In this document: positions 49,786-61,558 of the stretch, piece after piece
Numbering within the stretch: the first letter of the stretch is position 1
Layout of the letters: each line of letters opens with the position of its first letter
Notes under the pieces: generated by a model
Told to the model about the DNA's origin: nothing
Databases searched by the model: none
What the model saw: only the letters and a program-made list of their open reading frames with translations
From: Flavobacteriaceae bacterium
GTDB taxonomy: Bacteria; Bacteroidota; Bacteroidia; Flavobacteriales; Flavobacteriaceae
DNA length: 64,000 nt
NCBI GenBank assembly: GCA_016649715.1
Contig: JAENXC010000002.1
Span: 224,650-288,649, forward strand
Reading direction: 5' to 3'
Program-made: the position numbers and the translations under genes

Positions 49786-51753
49786 ATGAGGTTTAACTCC
49801 TTTTTTAAGCAATGCAGCGAAAAGGAAGTCTTTAAAATGTTGTCTATTTATGTGGTGTCTGCGTGGGTAATTTTGCAGGTACTTTCAGTAACATGGCAGC
49901 CTTTGGGTCTTCCCCATAAATCCGTTGCATTTTTGATTGTTGTATTGCTTCTTTGTTTTCCACTCTATATCTTTTTACTGTGGAGATTTAGACTTGCTCC
50001 AAACAAAAAAACTGAAACAGAGCTTGATGAAAAGGAAGAAAAGAAAAACGCCGCCTTTAAGAAAATGTATTTCTCCTCTTTGGGTATCATCACTTCGCTT
50101 TGCGTAATCGGCGTCTTTCTTATTATCAACAAAAATTTTTCCCAAGAAAATAACGAAATCCTTCCAAAAATAATAAAGAGCGATAAAATTGCTGTTTTAA
50201 GATTTGGCAACAATACAGGCGATCCACAATATGACATTGTTAGCAAAATGGCTTCCGATTGGATAATCCACGGCATTACAGAGAATCACGTGGCTCAAGT
50301 GATAACGCAGGATTTAATAGATGAATACAAAACCATTTTAAAAGGAAAAAAAATAGAAGAAGATGAAACCACGATAATCAAGGAATACCTGAAACCCAGC
50401 AAAATTATCTCAGGAAACTTTTACCTTCAAAACGGAAACCTTCTTTTTCAGGGAATGCTCATTGACGGCAAGACAAACAAAACCAATATTTCCTTCAAGC
50501 CCACGGAATGCGCTGCTGACAACCCATTGCAATGTATTGAGGATCTTAACGAATCAATAACAGGCTATTTCATTACCGAAGATAAAAAAGGGCTGATGCT
50601 CCAGGAAACCCCTCCAAAATATGAGGCCTATAAATATTTGCTGGAAGCAAAATACAGCAACGAAAATCAGGAATACATCAATCTCTTAGACAAAGCCATA
50701 GCTGCCGATTCCACTTATTTTGAGCCAAAGGTATTACGCGTTGCCCATTATTACAACCAAAAAGAATACAAAAAAGCGGATTCCTTACTAAAACTAATAA
50801 AGCCAGATTCCTACTCAAACAAACGCCAACTGAACTTGCTGAATATGTATGAAGCACTTTTAAAAGGCGATAACCGCAACGTGTACAAATCAATTTTAAA
50901 AGAATACGAAATAGCGCCATTCGATTTAATAACCAATAAAACCGCAATGGTTGTCGCCTTGCAGTTCGTCAACCGGCCGGAAGACGTTGAAGCCATTTAC
51001 AAAACCGTCAATATGGACAGCATGAGCCTCCAAAATTGTGCGTATTGCGTACAGCGGATTTATGTGAAGGCTTTTGCAGATATTGAATTGGGCAAATACC
51101 CAACGGCCATTCAAAACATTGAAATGGCACAGAAGGAAGACGAGACCAAATCATTGAACAAGCCATTGGCCATTGCTTATGTTCGAGGAAATAAAACGGA
51201 GGCGCTCAACCAATTTTGGAGAAAAATTGAAATTACTTCAACCCCAGCAGAAACCCAGGATTTGTATTTGCAAACAGGGAAGGAGTTTTTGCTAAAAAAT
51301 GATAAAACCAAAGCAAGTGAATTTTTCAATAAAATTATTAATGCCGCAAAAGGAACATTAGATCCAAAGATGCTTTCCGACGCTCTGTTTTATGAGGAAG
51401 AATACACAAAGGCAGAAAAAGTTTTAAAAGAAATTCACATTAAAAACCCTGATGATATTGAGGTTTTGGCCAAACTGGCTATTTGCAACTTTAAACTCGG
51501 GAACCTTTCCGAAGCCGAAAAAGATAGAAAATCGATAGAAACCCTCCGTGGCGACTATCAATACGGCAGCGTTGATTACGCCCTATCACAATACTATGCC
51601 GCCACAGACAACCAACCTGCACTCTATAAGCATTTGCTGAAAGCCGCAGCAAATGGGCATACATACACTTGGCAATTCTATAAGAACGATCCCCAATTTT
51701 TAAAATATAATACATCAAAAGAGTTTAAGGAAGTTATGGATTTTTGGAAATAA
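49786..51753 (+). CDS. Membrane TolB-N-like/TPR signalling protein
   Basis: N-terminal VFKMLSIYVVSAWVILQVLSVTWQPLGLPHKSVAFLIVVLLLCFPLYIFLLWRF (TM module common in CadC/cyclase-TPR proteins), KIAVLRFGNNTGDPQYD, C-terminal TPR-like helices. Confidence 0.75.
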   Translation: MRFNSFFKQCSEKEVFKMLSIYVVSAWVILQVLSVTWQPLGLPHKSVAFLIVVLLLCFPLYIFLLWRFRLAPNKKTETELDEKEEKKNAAFKKMYFSSLGIITSLCVIGVFLIINKNFSQENNEILPKIIKSDKIAVLRFGNNTGDPQYDIVSKMASDWIIHGITENHVAQVITQDLIDEYKTILKGKKIEEDETTIIKEYLKPSKIISGNFYLQNGNLLFQGMLIDGKTNKTNISFKPTECAADNPLQCIEDLNESITGYFITEDKKGLMLQETPPKYEAYKYLLEAKYSNENQEYINLLDKAIAADSTYFEPKVLRVAHYYNQKEYKKADSLLKLIKPDSYSNKRQLNLLNMYEALLKGDNRNVYKSILKEYEIAPFDLITNKTAMVVALQFVNRPEDVEAIYKTVNMDSMSLQNCAYCVQRIYVKAFADIELGKYPTAIQNIEMAQKEDETKSLNKPLAIAYVRGNKTEALNQFWRKIEITSTPAETQDLYLQTGKEFLLKNDKTKASEFFNKIINAAKGTLDPKMLSDALFYEEEYTKAEKVLKEIHIKNPDDIEVLAKLAICNFKLGNLSEAEKDRKSIETLRGDYQYGSVDYALSQYYAATDNQPALYKHLLKAAANGHTYTWQFYKNDPQFLKYNTSKEFKEVMDFWK

Positions 51754-51788
51754 CACTTTAATATTTTGGAAATAAATAATTTAAAAAA

Positions 51789-54029
51789 ATGACAAAGCTC
51801 AGAAACGCTTATGCATTAATAATAGGGGTAGGTAGCAAGGATTTACCGGAAACCGTAACAGATGCCAAAGCACTGCACAAAATTTTGGGAAGTAAGGAGT
51901 TTGGTGGATACTATAAAAAGAATATCAAACTAGTAACCAAGAAAAAAGCTACCCGTAAAGGGATTCTTGAAGCTTTTGACCATCTTTTGGAAGTTACGGA
52001 CGAAAAGTCTTCGGTATTGCTCTACTATTCCGGTCACGGTGGCATGTATAGCGATAACACTTTTATTAAGGACGAAGCCCTAAAGAAACCCGAAGCAGAA
52101 AACCAAAAGTATTTTCACCTGTGCCCGTATGATTATGACCCAGATAATTATAAAACAACCTGGATAAAAGCTGAAGAGATAAAGGCTAAAATCCAGCAGT
52201 TAAAATCTCGAAAATTAATTTTCTTTTTGGACTGTTGTCACGCCGCGGGAATGACGGCGGGAGTTTCAGGCTTAAGTGCACAGCAGCCCAGACATACCAA
52301 TGCAGACGGCCTTGCACAAAATTTGGATGACGGACGCGGCATGTCCATCGTTTCCGCTTGCAGGGCAGAACAACTATCCTATGTAATGGAAGGGGATGAA
52401 AACAGTTTGTTTACAAAATGTATGATAGAAGTTCTAAGGGGAGATGACAAACATGAACAAGATGATCCTTTTGTTCGCATTACGGAAGTGGTGCATTATA
52501 TCTTCAAGAAAGTTCCCGAAGTGAACCCTGTACAAAATCCGTATGCAAACCTTCAGATTTCTGACGATTTTATTGTGAGCTTTGTGCAACATTTGGTTCC
52601 AAATGATTCTAAAGATATTGAAGCTAAAGCTTTAGAAGATGATTCAGAAAAGACTATAAAAGAGTCCATTACTAAATTTAGAGAAACAGAAAACAGTAAT
52701 AGTGCCATACTGTTTGTGCACGGGTTTTCCGGAGATGCGGAAAATACCTTTTCCGAAGCGCCGAAATTAATTATGGCAAATGCAGAAATGGATGGTTGGG
52801 ATCTTTTTCCTTTAGGCTATAGCGGTAATGTAGTGCCTGAAATGGGCAAAAACATTTGGGCCTGCGCGAGCGATATTAAAAGAAACTCAGATTATCTGCT
52901 TACTTCAATAAGGAATAAATTCTCAAAATATAAACGAATCGCAATAGTAGCCCACGATTTGGGGGGAATTGTAGCGCAACAGGCTTTGCTGGAATTGGAA
53001 AAGGAGGATTTAAACGGAATAAGCCACGTGCTGTTTTTTGGTACCCCTAGTAATGGATTGCCGGAAATACAGTTAAAAAACTTCTTTACATACGGCAACG
53101 ATGAAAAAGAGCTAAAGGAATCAAGCCCATATATCCAAGAACTTCGGGCGCGCTGGAATGATACTTTTAAAGAGGATTACCCATTCACTTTTAAAACCAT
53201 TGCCGCTACAAGGGATGAGTTTGTTCCAATCTCTTCCAGTTTGGAGCCTTTCCCTAAAGAATATCGTGAAATAATAGAAGGAGACCATTTTTCCATAGTC
53301 CAAATTAAAAAGGAGGAAGATGATGGCTATATCGCTATTTTGAACACTTTGACAAACCAGAGCTTCTTGAATAAATTTTCCAATAAAGAGGAAATCAATA
53401 TTGCGATGGGAGAATACAACGAGGTTATAAATACCCTTCTCCCCAAACTGACAGCCCTTGACAACAAAGGTTTAGAACGATTGATTTACGCCTTGGAAGC
53501 AGCGGGCAGGGAAGAGGAAGCGATGAAAATTTTGAAGGAACACCCAGCGGCAAAAGACAATTCCAATCTGTTGGGAATTATGGGCGGGCGATACAAACGC
53601 CGATATTTGAAAACGTTTTCGGCGGAAGATTTACAAATGGCCTTTAAACACTACAACGATGCCCTAAAGATTTCTGAAGGGAAAAATGATTATTCCCAAA
53701 TATATTACCACGCCATAAACCTAGCTTTTCTCAGTTTGATGAAAGGAGAGAAAGGCGAAATGGCTGCATTTGCAGACCAAGCATACCAAGCCACCGAGAA
53801 AGACCCATTTCCCAGTCTTTGGAAATTTGCAACCATAGCAGAAGCTTTTCTCTATAAAGGCGATTTTGAAAAAGCTAAGGAAAATTACGGAAAAGCCGCA
53901 GCAATGGCTGGTTTGCGCGAAAAGATTTCAATCCATTCCAACGCCTACAACGCTTACGTGAGCTTAATGCAAACCGACAATCCGGATGATCCGTTTATCA
54001 AATTCCTAAAAATCAATTTTTTATCGTAA
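51789..54029 (+). CDS. Caspase-like (C14) protease fused to alpha/beta-hydrolase and TPR domains
   Basis: RNAYALIIGVGSKDLPETVTDAKALHKIL; YYSGHGG (His) and FFLDCCHAAG (Cys); ILFVHGFSGDAENTF...IAIVAHDLGGIVAQQALLE...GDHFSIVQ; C-terminal TPR. Confidence 0.9.
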   Translation: MTKLRNAYALIIGVGSKDLPETVTDAKALHKILGSKEFGGYYKKNIKLVTKKKATRKGILEAFDHLLEVTDEKSSVLLYYSGHGGMYSDNTFIKDEALKKPEAENQKYFHLCPYDYDPDNYKTTWIKAEEIKAKIQQLKSRKLIFFLDCCHAAGMTAGVSGLSAQQPRHTNADGLAQNLDDGRGMSIVSACRAEQLSYVMEGDENSLFTKCMIEVLRGDDKHEQDDPFVRITEVVHYIFKKVPEVNPVQNPYANLQISDDFIVSFVQHLVPNDSKDIEAKALEDDSEKTIKESITKFRETENSNSAILFVHGFSGDAENTFSEAPKLIMANAEMDGWDLFPLGYSGNVVPEMGKNIWACASDIKRNSDYLLTSIRNKFSKYKRIAIVAHDLGGIVAQQALLELEKEDLNGISHVLFFGTPSNGLPEIQLKNFFTYGNDEKELKESSPYIQELRARWNDTFKEDYPFTFKTIAATRDEFVPISSSLEPFPKEYREIIEGDHFSIVQIKKEEDDGYIAILNTLTNQSFLNKFSNKEEINIAMGEYNEVINTLLPKLTALDNKGLERLIYALEAAGREEEAMKILKEHPAAKDNSNLLGIMGGRYKRRYLKTFSAEDLQMAFKHYNDALKISEGKNDYSQIYYHAINLAFLSLMKGEKGEMAAFADQAYQATEKDPFPSLWKFATIAEAFLYKGDFEKAKENYGKAAAMAGLREKISIHSNAYNAYVSLMQTDNPDDPFIKFLKINFLS

Positions 54030-54051
54030 TTTAAATTCAAATTTATTCGGG

Positions 54052-54276
54052 ATGAAGAAATTCTTTCAAGACAAGAATCCAAAGTTGGATTTCAAAAAAG
54101 CTATAAAAAAGCCAATTCCCATAAAATGTGTGCAGATAAACGAGCCCTTTGAGGTGGAAAGCATGGAAGGACTTGTAAAAGGAAAGGCTGGCGACTGGTT
54201 GATGATTGGCGTGAACGGCGAAAAATATGTGTGTGATGCTGCCATTTTCAAAAAGAGTTATGATATTGTAGATTAA
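54052..54276 (+). CDS. 74-aa PGDYG-like domain protein
   Basis: PIPIKCVQINEPFEVESMEGLVKGKAGDWLMIGVNGEKYVCDAAIFKKSYDIVD. Confidence 0.65.
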   Translation: MKKFFQDKNPKLDFKKAIKKPIPIKCVQINEPFEVESMEGLVKGKAGDWLMIGVNGEKYVCDAAIFKKSYDIVD

Positions 54277-54310
54277 AACAAAACCAATTCAAATTTAAAA
54301 TCGCTAAAAG

Positions 54311-55324
54311 ATGAGTGCAAAAAAGATTTTTATCAGTTATTCAAGAAGGGACACCGATTATGTTAAATCATTGGTGGACGCCTTGCGGAAACAGGGATTC
54401 GAGGTATGGTTTGACAATAATATACGCACCGGGACAGACTGGGACGACACTATAGAGTCTGAGCTTAAGAAAGCGGATGCCATAGTGTTGATACTTTCGA
54501 AAACCTCGGTGGCATCAGATAATGTGAAGGATGAAATATCCTATGCCATTGGGTTGGACAAGCCCGTAAGCCCCATAAAGATAGAGGAATGCGACGTGCC
54601 GATGCGTTTGGCGCGGAAGCAATTTGTCGATTTTACGGCCATGGGCCACGAAGCTGGTTTTGAGCGATTGGTGAACGATTTAAAAATAAGTCTGAAGGAA
54701 GCCGAAACGAGCGTTCCCAAAGGAACATTCACGCCTCCAAAAACAATTACTGGACCAACAAATGCAGTGGCAAAAGGGTCTAAAAAAATATTGCCTTATA
54801 TACTTGGAGGAATTGTTACGCTAATTATTTTCGTTGTTTTAATACTAAATTGTGAAGAAGGAACCACAGAAGATTCGGAGGGAAATGATGCGGAGGCTGC
54901 TACAGAAATTACGAATCCCGATTGGGAGGATGCAGTAAGTTCAAATTCCATAGACAATTATCTAAAGTATATGTATAAAAAGGGTTCCGATGATGAATAC
55001 TTTTGGGCTGCATCAGATTCCATTAATGCGTTAATGCCCAATGAAGGGGTTGTAACGTATGCAGAACCTAATGGCGCAAAACATTTTGTAAAGAATCTTT
55101 TTAAAAATGCGGATGGAGTACTGGAATATGGCCAGGATGACAACCAGCTGCCCAGAGCTGAAGATATTCTTTCAGCTATTGACCTAGTAGATATATATGA
55201 TGTTAATGACAAACAGATTATTCATGGAGAGAATATTATTGCTGGGGAGAAAGTAAGAGTAACCGCAGTAGATTTTCCAGAGGATGGATCTGTTTTAGTA
55301 TCAATCCAATATCCGGATAAGTAA
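54311..55324 (+). CDS. TIR domain protein with single TM and C-terminal uncharacterised domain
   Basis: KKIFISYSRRDTDYVKSLVDALRKQGFEVWFDNNIRTGTDWDDTIESELKKADAIVLILSKTSVASDNVKDEISYAIGLDKPVSPI; TM ILPYILGGIVTLIIFVVLIL. Confidence 0.92.
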   Translation: MSAKKIFISYSRRDTDYVKSLVDALRKQGFEVWFDNNIRTGTDWDDTIESELKKADAIVLILSKTSVASDNVKDEISYAIGLDKPVSPIKIEECDVPMRLARKQFVDFTAMGHEAGFERLVNDLKISLKEAETSVPKGTFTPPKTITGPTNAVAKGSKKILPYILGGIVTLIIFVVLILNCEEGTTEDSEGNDAEAATEITNPDWEDAVSSNSIDNYLKYMYKKGSDDEYFWAASDSINALMPNEGVVTYAEPNGAKHFVKNLFKNADGVLEYGQDDNQLPRAEDILSAIDLVDIYDVNDKQIIHGENIIAGEKVRVTAVDFPEDGSVLVSIQYPDK

Positions 55325-55489: not shown

Positions 55490-57304
55490 CTACTTATTAC
55501 TGTTTATAAAATACATTTTCATTGAACCTCTATTTTTGACTTCTATTTCTCCTCGGTATTCACATTCAAAAGTATCTTTTACAAGCTCATAGGTATTCTC
55601 TCCAATATTTATTTTTCCAGACTCCGACATAGTTTCCATTCGTGAAGCTACATTTACGGTATCTCCCCAAATATCATAGGCAAATTTTTTGGTTCCCACT
55701 ACTCCTGCAACAACGGGTCCTGTATTGATGCCTATTCGGATATCAAAAGTAAGTTCGCTTGCAGACACGTCTTTTTTTGTTTCCTCTACAAATGCAGCGA
55801 TTTCAATAGCGGCCAATATCATTCTTTTGGCATGATCTTCCGTATTGCCATGCAGCCCTCCGGCACACATATAGGCATCGCCTATGGTTTTGATTTTTTC
55901 CAAACCGTGTTTTTCTACAATTTCATCAAACCTTGAAAAGTAAAAGCTCACTGTTTCTACCAGAGCTTCTGGCGATAGCTTTTCTGAATAATTTGTAAAA
56001 CCCTTAAAATCTGTAAACAATACCGTCACGGAATCGTATTTTTTGGCTTTTACCGCCCCATTTCGCTTTAATTCGGCTGCCGTTTCCTCAGGAAGTATAT
56101 TTAGAAGTAAACTATCTGAGCGATCCCGCTCTTCCTCAATAATCTTTTTTGTTTTTCGTATGAAGTTGTTACGCCTATATAGCCCTATGGCAATGAAGCC
56201 TATCAAAAACAGGGCGATAGCGGTGGCAATTGCTATATTGCGTTGGTTTTTTCTTCTCTGGTCCAGTAAATCTACTTCTATCTGTTTTTGCGAAACTTCA
56301 TAATTTGTGCGCAAATCGCCCATTTGTTGCACATTTTTTACATTGATAACACTATCCCTATAAATGATATATGACTTATAATATTTGTAGGATAGCACCG
56401 AATCGCCAGCCTGTTCGTAAAGTTCAGCTATTTTTTTATTGGCATCACCAATCTGTTCCTTTAGACTGTATTGTGTTGCAAGTGTGAGGCTTCTTTTTGC
56501 ATAATCAATTGCGGCCTGCCATTGCCCTTTTTCTAAGTAGATATCAGCCATAGTCATGAGATAGACACTGATTGGGTAATAATCCTCAGTTTCTTCCAGA
56601 ATACGGATAGCTTCATTGATGTTCTTTTCTGCTAATTCGTTTTTCCCAGTATTTGCATATAACATACCTATATCGCCAAGATTATAGGCTTTTCCTATGG
56701 GGTAATTTTCTTGTTCAAAAATTTTACTCGATTCTTTGAAGTACACAAGTGCCGAATCGTAACTTTTGTAGGTAAGCAAAGCATCCCCAGCATTAAATAT
56801 TGTTGATGCTAAATCAATTTTGGCTGTGGTTTTTCGCAATGTAGCGATAGCTTTGTTATAATAAAGCATCGCGTTTTTATGATTATCAGAAATAACATAA
56901 ATGTCCGCAATTGCACCATAGGCACTACCTTCAAGTGGAATTTTATTTTCTCTTTGTGCAATTTCTGCACTTTTGAAAAAAGCCTTTAGGGCTTCTTCCA
57001 GATTGCCCAACAATCTATTGGCACTTCCCTTTTGGAAATAACCTTGCGATTGATACGGATAATCACCCATTTCTTCCGACAGCTTTATTAACTCTTCGGC
57101 ATACTGCAGGCTTCGTTGATTGTCCTTTACTTCATTGAATGATAGTTGCGTTAATAATTCCAACCTTGCTTTACCCGAAAGCGTATTTGCTTGATATATC
57201 TTGACCAAGCTATCCGCAATTTTTTGATCTTGGGCTTTGGTTGAAATGGTAAATATGTGAAAAAAGCCTATTAGTAAATAATAGGCTATTTTATTACGAA
57301 TCAT
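55490..57304 (-). CDS. TPR-TM-class III nucleotidyl (predicted adenylate) cyclase
   Basis: Signal peptide, TPRs, TM NIAIATAIALFLIGFIAIGLY, then SVTVLFTDFKGFTNYSEKLSPE...GLEKIKTIGDAYMCAGG...FAYDIWGDTVNVASRMETMSESGKINIGENTYEL. Confidence 0.93.
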   Translation of the reverse strand: MIRNKIAYYLLIGFFHIFTISTKAQDQKIADSLVKIYQANTLSGKARLELLTQLSFNEVKDNQRSLQYAEELIKLSEEMGDYPYQSQGYFQKGSANRLLGNLEEALKAFFKSAEIAQRENKIPLEGSAYGAIADIYVISDNHKNAMLYYNKAIATLRKTTAKIDLASTIFNAGDALLTYKSYDSALVYFKESSKIFEQENYPIGKAYNLGDIGMLYANTGKNELAEKNINEAIRILEETEDYYPISVYLMTMADIYLEKGQWQAAIDYAKRSLTLATQYSLKEQIGDANKKIAELYEQAGDSVLSYKYYKSYIIYRDSVINVKNVQQMGDLRTNYEVSQKQIEVDLLDQRRKNQRNIAIATAIALFLIGFIAIGLYRRNNFIRKTKKIIEEERDRSDSLLLNILPEETAAELKRNGAVKAKKYDSVTVLFTDFKGFTNYSEKLSPEALVETVSFYFSRFDEIVEKHGLEKIKTIGDAYMCAGGLHGNTEDHAKRMILAAIEIAAFVEETKKDVSASELTFDIRIGINTGPVVAGVVGTKKFAYDIWGDTVNVASRMETMSESGKINIGENTYELVKDTFECEYRGEIEVKNRGSMKMYFINSNK

Positions 57305-58563: not shown

Positions 58564-59958
58564 TTAATGGTTTGCGGGTTGTATATTTTGGTTGACCCTG
58601 AATATATTATTTGGGTCGAATTTGCTTTTGATTTCAGACAAGCGCTTATAATTATGCTTATAGCTGGCCTGAACCCGTTCTTGACCTTCATCCATCATAA
58701 AGTTTGAATATGCCCCTCCAGCGGAATGCGGATGCAAGGCTTCCCAATATGCTTTACACCAAGTTGTAATTTTATCGGCATTGGCTGGGTTTGGATCAAC
58801 GCCCACAATAACGCCGGCATAGAGGGCGTCTCTATAAGCCCAAGGCGTGGCATCAGGGGCTACCCTGCTAGCAGCTCCGCTAATGGGATATAGATGCATT
58901 TGTGATAAAGGCGTGGGTATATTAGAACCGAACTGCAAATGTTGTGCCCGAACTTCGGGGCCCAATTCCTTAAAAAAATCGGCTCTCCAATACCATTGTA
59001 ATCCTGGAGGCATTAAACCATCAAACATGGTTTGTATTGCGGGGTAAGGCATTTCGCCTACATGTTCAAATATTGGTTTTTTGGCTAAAATTGGCTTGAA
59101 CAGTTCTTTGGCTTTTTCCATATCGCCCGTATAGCACCACACAATACCACAAAACGCCTTCTTGTGTAAAAACTCAGGAAATGGTGGTCCCGGAATTACC
59201 ATCGTGGCAATAAATCCGTTTAATTCATCTGGCGCAGTCTTTAAAAACTCGTGATACCAGGCCATGATTTCCTCTGTTTGCTCAATGGGCCATAAGGTTG
59301 GGCCACCAAAAACCGTGTTCACTTTATGGGCTTGAAATTTAAAGGAGGTTACAATCCCAAAGTTTCCGCCCCCACCGCGAATTGCCCAAAACAGGTCGGC
59401 ATGCTGGTCTTTATTCACAGTAACAAATGAGCCATCAGCCAAAACCATATCGGCTTCGAGAAGGTTGTCTATGGTCAATCCGTATTTACGGGATAAATGC
59501 CCTATCCCTCCTCCAAGGGTCAAGCCTCCCACCCCCGTGGACGATATAATTCCTGCCGGAACTGCCAGTCCAAAAGGATGGGTGGCGTGATCTACTTCGC
59601 CCCAAAGGTTTCCCCCTCCTACTCTGACTGTATTATTTGAAGTATCTACTCTTACAAATTTAATTCCTGATAAATCTATAACGAGTCCTTCATCACATAA
59701 ACCTAAGCCACCTCCATTATGACCCCCACCTCTTATAGCAATTAATAAATTATTTTCTCTGCCAAAATTTACAGCTGCTATTACATCGGCTACATCTACA
59801 CACATTGCAAACATTCCAGGATGTTTGTCAATCATAGCGTTATACACTTTACGGGTTTCATTGTAATCGGCATCTGAAGGCAATATCACGCGTCCCCGCA
59901 ATTGGGCGGCAAAGGTTTTTATAATGGAAGGATCCAATTGTTTTGCTGAATTTTTCAT
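58564..59958 (-). CDS. FAD-binding PCMH/BBE-type oxidoreductase
   Basis: AIRGGGHNGGGLGLCDEGLVIDLSGIKFVRVD...VPAGIISSTGVGGLTLGGGIGHLSRKYGLTIDNLLEADMVLADG...KFDPNNIFRVNQNI. Confidence 0.94.
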   Translation of the reverse strand: MKNSAKQLDPSIIKTFAAQLRGRVILPSDADYNETRKVYNAMIDKHPGMFAMCVDVADVIAAVNFGRENNLLIAIRGGGHNGGGLGLCDEGLVIDLSGIKFVRVDTSNNTVRVGGGNLWGEVDHATHPFGLAVPAGIISSTGVGGLTLGGGIGHLSRKYGLTIDNLLEADMVLADGSFVTVNKDQHADLFWAIRGGGGNFGIVTSFKFQAHKVNTVFGGPTLWPIEQTEEIMAWYHEFLKTAPDELNGFIATMVIPGPPFPEFLHKKAFCGIVWCYTGDMEKAKELFKPILAKKPIFEHVGEMPYPAIQTMFDGLMPPGLQWYWRADFFKELGPEVRAQHLQFGSNIPTPLSQMHLYPISGAASRVAPDATPWAYRDALYAGVIVGVDPNPANADKITTWCKAYWEALHPHSAGGAYSNFMMDEGQERVQASYKHNYKRLSEIKSKFDPNNIFRVNQNIQPANH

Positions 59959-59978
59959 TGTGCTGTTTATTTGTTTGG

Positions 59979-60353
59979 TTATTTTGAAATAATCATATCT
60001 TTTAACGACCACAGTATGGCCAAGACGTCTTTTTTTGAATCTTCTGAAATGGAATTCTTGTCCAAGGCCGCAAAAATATCATCCATTACATGCATGTATT
60101 CTGAAGGACTTATATTCATACCAGTATGGGTCTTTAGCATATCTTTTCCCGAATAATTCGCAGGACCACCACTACCCATACTAAAAAAATCTACAGTGTG
60201 TTTTTTGATAATGGCCAATTGTTCGGGTTTTTCTTTAAAAGGAAGAAACCGGGCGTTTATAGCTGGGTTATTCATATGCGCATCTACGGTATCATCTACT
60301 ATTGATGTAATACCTTCTTTGCCCCCTAAGCGTTCGTAAAGTGTCTTGGTCAT
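59979..60353 (-). CDS. Group I truncated hemoglobin
   Basis: TLYERLGGKEGITSIVDDTVDAHMNNPAINARF...HTVDFFSMGSGGPANYSGKDMLKTHTGMNISPSEYMHVMDDI. Confidence 0.93.
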   Translation of the reverse strand: MTKTLYERLGGKEGITSIVDDTVDAHMNNPAINARFLPFKEKPEQLAIIKKHTVDFFSMGSGGPANYSGKDMLKTHTGMNISPSEYMHVMDDIFAALDKNSISEDSKKDVLAILWSLKDMIISK

Positions 60354-60466
60354 AATATTTGGTTTTAGTTATAACCCAAAACTAAGGAGACAAAACAGAA
60401 CGCACCGCTACATTTAATTCAAAAAATGACAATTTTGAACCAAGGGGAAATTATATGAAGCTGATA

Positions 60467-61558
60467 TTAAACTGTGTATTGTTGTAAATATTTTGAAGGA
60501 AGCAGGCCATACTTATCCATAAAGCATTTTGAGAAATAGGCAGCGCTGTTAAAGCCAGATTTAAATGCAACCTCAGAAATATTATCTGTTTGTTTCTGCA
60601 GTAAAAGCAAGGCTTGTTCCAAGCGGTAATCTTTTAGGAATGTATTGGGGGATTTTCCAAGAACGGCTATCATTTTACGATAAAGGTGCGACTTGCTATA
60701 GCCTAAATTCACACAAAAGTCGCCTGCACTTAAAGAGGTTTGATGCCATACCCGCTCTGTATAATCCAATAGTTTGTTAAGGAATTTTTCGTCAGCGCTA
60801 CTTAATGCATGTACGTGCTTACTGTTAATAGGTTCATTTAAATTTTCACTTTCGTAAAGGTCCTTTACTTCAGAGGCTATGGAGACAGGGCTGTTTACAT
60901 ACCCACATAAGCGTTCGGCCATTTTTATGGTATCCTCAAAGATGCCATCCTTTTCCGTTACGGGCACTCCGGCACTCAGACCTATATTTAAAACCCACTG
61001 ATTGGGTTGATTAGCAGTACTATTTTGAATTTCCAGAGCGCATAAAATCGCTTGGGTAACCGAATCAAAGGCTGCCAAACTATACTGTAACCGCTGTTTA
61101 ACCATACGGCCCTTATGGGTGTTTAAAGAAGTCTGTATGGAGGTAGTAAGTTTTTGATAGTGAGCCTTTGGGGTTTTGGAGGGTTCCAATAAGCTTAATG
61201 GCCTAGTTGTAATAACCACGATAGTCCTAAAAGCCGGATCGTTAATAATGTTCAAGGCTGTTTTTTTCGATTTTGCGGGGTCTTCTATACGGCCCAAAAA
61301 GGATTCCACCACTGCATCGTCCACTTCTATTATTCTATGGGGCACCTGTCCATGGGCTTGGTCGTGCATTTTCTGTATCGCTTCCTTATTGGGGGCTTCC
61401 ACTAAACAAAACGCTGTTTTTCGGGAGTCGTCAAACCAATAGGTTAGGCCTTTACAGTTAAATTTATCCTGTATTTTTAAGTCCTCTTGGTGTAATTGTG
61501 CCACAATTTCAGCAGTTACTTCTGCCGAAACATCATGGCGGTCCATATATATAGGCAT
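60467..61558 (-). CDS. DUF4242-like (nickel-binding type) / degenerate class III cyclase / AraC-HTH regulator
   Basis: N-term PIYMDRHDVSAEVTAEIVAQLHQEDLKIQDKFNCKGLTYWFDDSRKTAFCLVEAPNKEAIQKMHDQAHG; middle THKGRMVKQRLQYSLAAFDSVTQAILCALEIQ...NIGLSAGVPV; C-term AraC helix-turn-helix (NISEVAFKSGFNSAAYFSKCFMDKYGLLPSKYLQQ). Confidence 0.85.
   Translation of the reverse strand: MPIYMDRHDVSAEVTAEIVAQLHQEDLKIQDKFNCKGLTYWFDDSRKTAFCLVEAPNKEAIQKMHDQAHGQVPHRIIEVDDAVVESFLGRIEDPAKSKKTALNIINDPAFRTIVVITTRPLSLLEPSKTPKAHYQKLTTSIQTSLNTHKGRMVKQRLQYSLAAFDSVTQAILCALEIQNSTANQPNQWVLNIGLSAGVPVTEKDGIFEDTIKMAERLCGYVNSPVSIASEVKDLYESENLNEPINSKHVHALSSADEKFLNKLLDYTERVWHQTSLSAGDFCVNLGYSKSHLYRKMIAVLGKSPNTFLKDYRLEQALLLLQKQTDNISEVAFKSGFNSAAYFSKCFMDKYGLLPSKYLQQYTV

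Follow-up and report, generated by a model that had tools for sequence, protein, structure and literature searches.

The stretch of DNA analyzed here (64,000 nt; herein the window) comes from a marine-type Bacteroidota genome and carries a gene for a three-domain protein, followed on the same strand by genes for a truncated globin and an FAD-linked oxidoreductase. The gap between the first two genes holds a conserved element with the form of an operator and, behind it, a promoter element. The features are as follows, with positions counted in the window:

60467 to 61558, reverse strand: regulator gene, 363 aa, with SCO4226-like, pseudo-cyclase and AraC HTH domains
61322 to 61549, reverse strand: SCO4226-like (DUF4242) domain, residues 4 to 79 (Pfam PF14026, E = 2.6e-20; invariant columns)
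60839 to 61228, reverse strand: degenerate class III cyclase domain, residues ~111 to 240 (profile search, AlphaFold2/Foldseek and alignment)
60476 to 60805, reverse strand: AraC-type HTH domain, residues ~252 to 361 (HTH_18; PDB 12aw, 8.9e-32)
60405 to 60442, reverse strand: putative operator, 38 bp, two direct half-sites 21 bp apart, TGGTTCAAAATTGTCAT tttt TGAATTAAATGTAGCGG (conserved gap element)
60377 to 60384, reverse strand: putative -7 element TAGTTTTG, exactly 20 bp after the operator
59979 to 60353, reverse strand: truncated (bacterial-type) globin, 124 aa, first predicted target (PF01152, 5.4e-10; conserved downstream neighbor)
58564 to 60012, reverse strand: FAD-linked oxidoreductase with a BBE domain, second predicted target (PF01565, PF08031)

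Read along the coding strand, the regulator gene is followed by the operator (60442 to 60405), TAGTTTTG (60384 to 60377) and the globin ATG (60353). The globin and oxidase open reading frames overlap by 34 bp (59979 to 60012, reverse strand) when the oxidase is started at the GTG at 60012; because relatives start this gene later, an internal ATG is probably the real start.

Both ends of the regulator are recognized by Pfam. The SCO4226-like domain scores 72.8 bits against a curated PF14026 cut-off of 28.5; HTH_18 covers residues 284 through 359 (E = 3.3e-19) and is matched by 66 of 66 family members. AraC-type PDB matches with the family profile likewise place a two-HTH AraC DNA-binding domain here, which supports the proposal of an earlier note on this DNA that the protein regulates transcription. 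Nothing was assigned by Pfam to the middle region of the window protein, where Guanylate_cyc does not rise above its cut-off, and that model matches only 3 of the 66 members, weakly (best E = 0.0014). A single-sequence phmmer search of the PDB matched 3mr7 at E = 2.2e-4, and the 66-member family profile matched 3mr7 and Ma1120 at 2.2e-16 and 8.3e-16, respectively. The full-length AlphaFold2 model has a pLDDT of 92.9 and a pTM of 0.91; for the middle domain modeled alone the values are 87.0 and 0.83. All 50 of the best PDB matches listed by Foldseek for the domain-alone model are nucleotide cyclases (best E = 1.2e-7), with class III cyclases at the top, and its TM score to Ma1120 is about 0.6 to 0.74. 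Profile search and predicted structure together confirm the middle domain as a class III cyclase homolog. The cyclase fold that the earlier note had put to structure prediction is present in the models, and its three-domain architecture stands.

About 100 members of the three-domain family were collected, mostly from Flavobacteriaceae. The protein is common in 201 Flavobacteriaceae genomes and is carried by other Bacteroidota families as well, including a Chitinophaga sequence (L045); the regulator of the closest relative (L033) shares 83% identity with that of the window. The regulator gene is usually followed by a variable cassette on the same strand, drawn from genes for truncated globins, FAD/BBE oxidoreductases, free SCO4226-like proteins and cupin, SnoaL-like and PEMT/NnrU-like proteins and, rarely, an acyl-CoA dehydrogenase or a nitrilase. 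Among the 201 genomes, 21 of the 34 homologs of the window oxidase have a regulator gene no more than 4 kb away, against a chance expectation of well under one (one to a few regulators per genome of ~3.5 Mb).

At L059, L060, L061 and L062, two to four strongly diverged regulator paralogs stand in tandem, and the operator precedes the first of them; such arrays are possibly evolving rapidly. Short regulators of about 250 to 265 residues that lack the SCO4226 domain are found at L064, L065, L067, L068, L069 and L112, and several of them (e.g., L112) adjoin pyruvate dehydrogenase genes at a position where relatives have the full regulator and its cassette. In the tree, a fully supported split divides the Bacteroidota sequences from the outgroup, and the short forms are nested among the Bacteroidota; on account of this nesting the short forms look derived, having apparently lost both sensor and cassette.

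An operator-like 21-bp direct repeat adjoins the regulator gene in about 60 members. Shifted by 21 bp, the sites match themselves at 0.552, where 0.314 is expected (z = 15.5); no other offset from 14 through 27 stands out. This and the other statistics on these sites overstate independence, because the sites are phylogenetically related and some of them trained the model. A half-site model free of promoter information, in which the -7 element had no part, identified 58 distinct sites on the downstream side of regulator genes. In 43 of these, TAnnTTT[GA] begins precisely 20 bp past the site, and no other single offset has it in more than four; the strict form TAnnTTTG, which is the published Bacteroidota -7 element (PMC7366714), occurs 23 times at +20 and once elsewhere. 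Half-sites are more alike within one operator than between operators (4 of 2000 permutations). Across 40 loci we found 31 pairs of operator and -7 element, against none in a reversed-sequence control, and 28 of the 31 directly precede a cassette or regulator gene. Where the free SCO4226 gene comes first, it is this gene that the pair precedes (L091, L094, L095 and L098); in L097 it is the oxidase, and in L105 and L113 the regulator itself. In some divergent paralogs and in the short forms no operator site was detectable. An inverted-repeat operator (TTCAAAA-N8-TTTTGAA), seen in close relatives, was rejected; the 21-bp direct repeat fits 39 sites far better. The free SCO4226-like genes lie under the same operator in many loci, which suggests that the regulator and this target may handle the same ligand; some of their products have a signal-peptide or lipoprotein-like start (L009:3431-3826, L106:8909-9328 and similar).

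The window operator is the sole strong site in the 64,000 nt and the sole exact match genome-wide in a permissive pattern search; no further operator in its own genome rises above noise, two matches with two mismatches being at the level of the reversed control. Given this single match, the regulator looks local, acting on the globin and oxidase genes, and the conserved operator-promoter between the regulator and globin genes supports the globin/FAD-oxidase pair as the likely targets, as had been proposed from the window alone. In its DNA layout the putative operator is a direct repeat beside the target promoter, with a 21-bp period and a fixed distance to the -7 element. It lies wholly upstream of that element and abuts the -33 region, in which no -33 element is recognizable. 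AraC-type activators usually bind just upstream of the promoter, abutting the -33 region, and the arrangement is thus the layout of a local AraC-type activator. The same site might instead serve a repressor that shuts off the downstream cassette until ligand releases it, and operator position alone does not fully separate the two modes; we consider a repressor unlikely, however, as a site upstream of -7 at a fixed distance, with no -33 element, is the usual place of an AraC-type activator.

The nearest outgroup consists of rhizobial two-domain SCO4226-cyclase proteins, annotated "nickel-binding protein," whose cyclase domain is recognized by Pfam. Their LFTDIV and TGDGIM motifs align to VVITTR and RLQYSL of the window protein, so that Asp1 is replaced by Thr and Asp2 by Gln; the transition-state Asn position holds Lys, and the transition-state Arg is kept. 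The absence of the metal Asp residues, noted earlier, is borne out, and with both of them and the Asn gone the term pseudo-cyclase is justified. FTD had been described as replaced by ITT: the loss is correct, the register is not, as the alignment pairs FTD with V-I-T. None of 101 Bacteroidota members has the complete catalytic set (Asp, Asp, Asn/Gln, Arg), and both metal Asp residues occur in 9 of the 101; their retention in some lineages suggests, at the level of the alignment, gradual or repeated erosion. Column entropy is 3.35 bits at Asp1 and 2.71 bits at Asp2, against 0.09 to 0.24 for scaffold Gly/Pro/Phe, and the columns of the P-loop Gly and transition-state Asn are highly variable across the family. 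Because the outgroup keeps FTD and GDG, the fusion family is the one that lost catalysis; the outgroup also points to an origin in which an AraC HTH would have been fused to a two-domain SCO4226-cyclase enzyme. Class III cyclases act as dimers, and a retained dimerization surface is therefore a natural reason to keep the fold after catalysis is lost; we favor such a scaffold or dimerization role for the pseudo-cyclase.

The pseudo-cyclase could alternatively still bind a nucleotide (ATP, GTP or cAMP) without turnover and so provide the signal input, much as the earlier note had supposed in calling the protein a nucleotide sensor. The cyclase fold is retained, both the window protein and 33 of about 90 long members carry the transition-state Arg, and an apparently active cyclase is encoded 3 kb away. 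Across the family, however, variability is extreme in the columns of the metal Asp residues, the P-loop and the Asn, so that the nucleotide-contact positions drift with no site under visible constraint, and the active cyclase is not a conserved neighbor. The sensor claim is thus unsupported, and nucleotide input is in our judgment quite unlikely. We regard as highly doubtful a true (cyclic-)nucleotide-responsive switch, possibly read together with a metal at the SCO4226 domain; if true, it would make a dead second-messenger enzyme the receptor of a one-component transcription factor.

The neighboring cyclase is a TPR protein (55490 to 57304, reverse strand) whose class III cyclase domain looks intact (Guanylate_cyc, 2e-59; motifs FTDFKGFT and TIGDAYM). 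The enzyme is present as described earlier; it is not found beside the regulator in L033 or in the cassettes of other members. Without conserved neighborhood, its proximity is no evidence of coupling, and a functional link was rejected. PADLOC Pycsar cyclase models match this protein (2e-16), probably just through shared cyclase homology. Farther along, three co-directional genes (49786 to 55324, forward strand) encode a TPR protein, a caspase-domain protein (Peptidase_C14, 6.5e-21; TPR-S, 1.4e-14; esterase-like part) and a TIR-domain protein (TIR_2, 4e-28) and form a candidate defense or cell-death module.

The N-terminal domain is the most conserved part of the regulator, with a mean column entropy of 1.51 bits against 1.83 for the HTH and 2.46 for the cyclase part, and it holds the family-invariant residues D6, H8, H23, D26, C51 and H65; it is for these reasons the likely sensor. 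The nickel ligands of SCO4226 include His23, Asp43, Ser46, Glu74 and His76, and nickel binding is weak (Kd about 10 μM; PMC4186839). In the window protein H23 and D43 are kept and S46 is Arg, with an ambiguous counterpart of His76; Asp43 is the only Ni-1 ligand clearly retained with unchanged numbering. Given the low affinity of SCO4226 (PMC4186839), nickel is only one ligand candidate, and the conserved D6/H8/H23/D26/H65 suggest a site of some kind. From the globin, FAD oxidase, cupin and SnoaL-like cassettes, our guess is that the signal is a metal or a redox-active or toxic small molecule.

Taken together, these data favor, as the likely reading, an AraC-type activator of its own neighbors in which the SCO4226-like domain senses and the dead cyclase serves as a dimerizing relay scaffold. 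The regulator would be a one-component transcription activator of the adjoining genes. The signal sensed by its N-terminal domain would probably be a metal ion or small ligand, bound through the invariant Asp/His residues, and the cyclase domain, with its catalytic residues lost, would relay that signal as a dimerizing scaffold between sensor and HTH. As a dimer the regulator would bind the direct repeat of two half-sites, spaced 21 bp apart and located in the gap that separates its gene from the globin/FAD-oxidase pair, and would bring RNA polymerase to a promoter that lacks an evident -33 element. That the conserved DNA instead serves another factor, or acts as an RNA element, with the regulator working elsewhere, is very improbable: it is found after the regulator gene in front of unrelated cassettes, its halves co-vary, it has the direct-repeat form expected of AraC proteins, and the pair of operator and -7 element is absent upstream, on the gene strand, of 11 of 11 oxidase genes with no adjacent regulator.

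Recognition of the hidden cyclase domain, missed by Pfam, makes the proteins so far known simply as SCO4226-like (nickel-binding) plus AraC one defined family with a likely origin by fusion and catalysis loss, a likely DNA site and likely targets. As far as we have checked, the family is large and previously unlabeled, and its likely operator is new here. It is a clear example, from bacteria, of a transcription factor that apparently retains a class III cyclase domain as a scaffold, and with this operator-promoter layout both the circuit and the ligand of the SCO4226-like domain can be tested directly in Flavobacteriia. We found no paper describing the SCO4226-like, cyclase and AraC architecture in open-access text, and no passages on HTH in the text of a 2004 cyclase survey. 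Every domain of this AraC-type one-component regulator is known by itself; to the extent of our check, no description exists of their combination, of the pseudo-enzyme step or of the operator.

The individual parts have known counterparts. The N-terminal domain shares its fold with SCO4226 of Streptomyces coelicolor (PDB 4oi3/4oi6; TM 0.87 to 4oi6, 34% identity), and D6, H8, H23, D26, C51 and H65 are common to both in the alignment; SCO4226, however, is a free 82-residue protein with weak Ni binding, and the regulator keeps its Ni-1 ligand set only partly. The rhizobial two-domain proteins (e.g., WP_057206949.1 and WP_080830418.1) align over residues 1 through 230 with 31 to 39% identity and the same domain order, but retain the FTD and GDG metal motifs and lack the AraC HTH. 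With Ma1120, 3mr7 and the Rv1900c CHD the middle domain shares fold and sequence profile; unlike them, it has neither the metal Asp pair nor the transition-state Asn, and its C-terminal strands are replaced by the linker to the HTH. Mycobacterial cyclase-HTH fusions of the Rv0386 type likewise join a cyclase domain to a DNA-binding HTH, although theirs is of the LuxR type and the cyclases are at least partly active. With the AraC/XylS activators AraC, ToxT and Rns the regulator shares the HTH family and a putative direct-repeat operator (21-bp period) beside the promoter, whereas its sensor and dimerization part is a SCO4226-like domain and a pseudo-cyclase in place of a cupin or other known AraC input.
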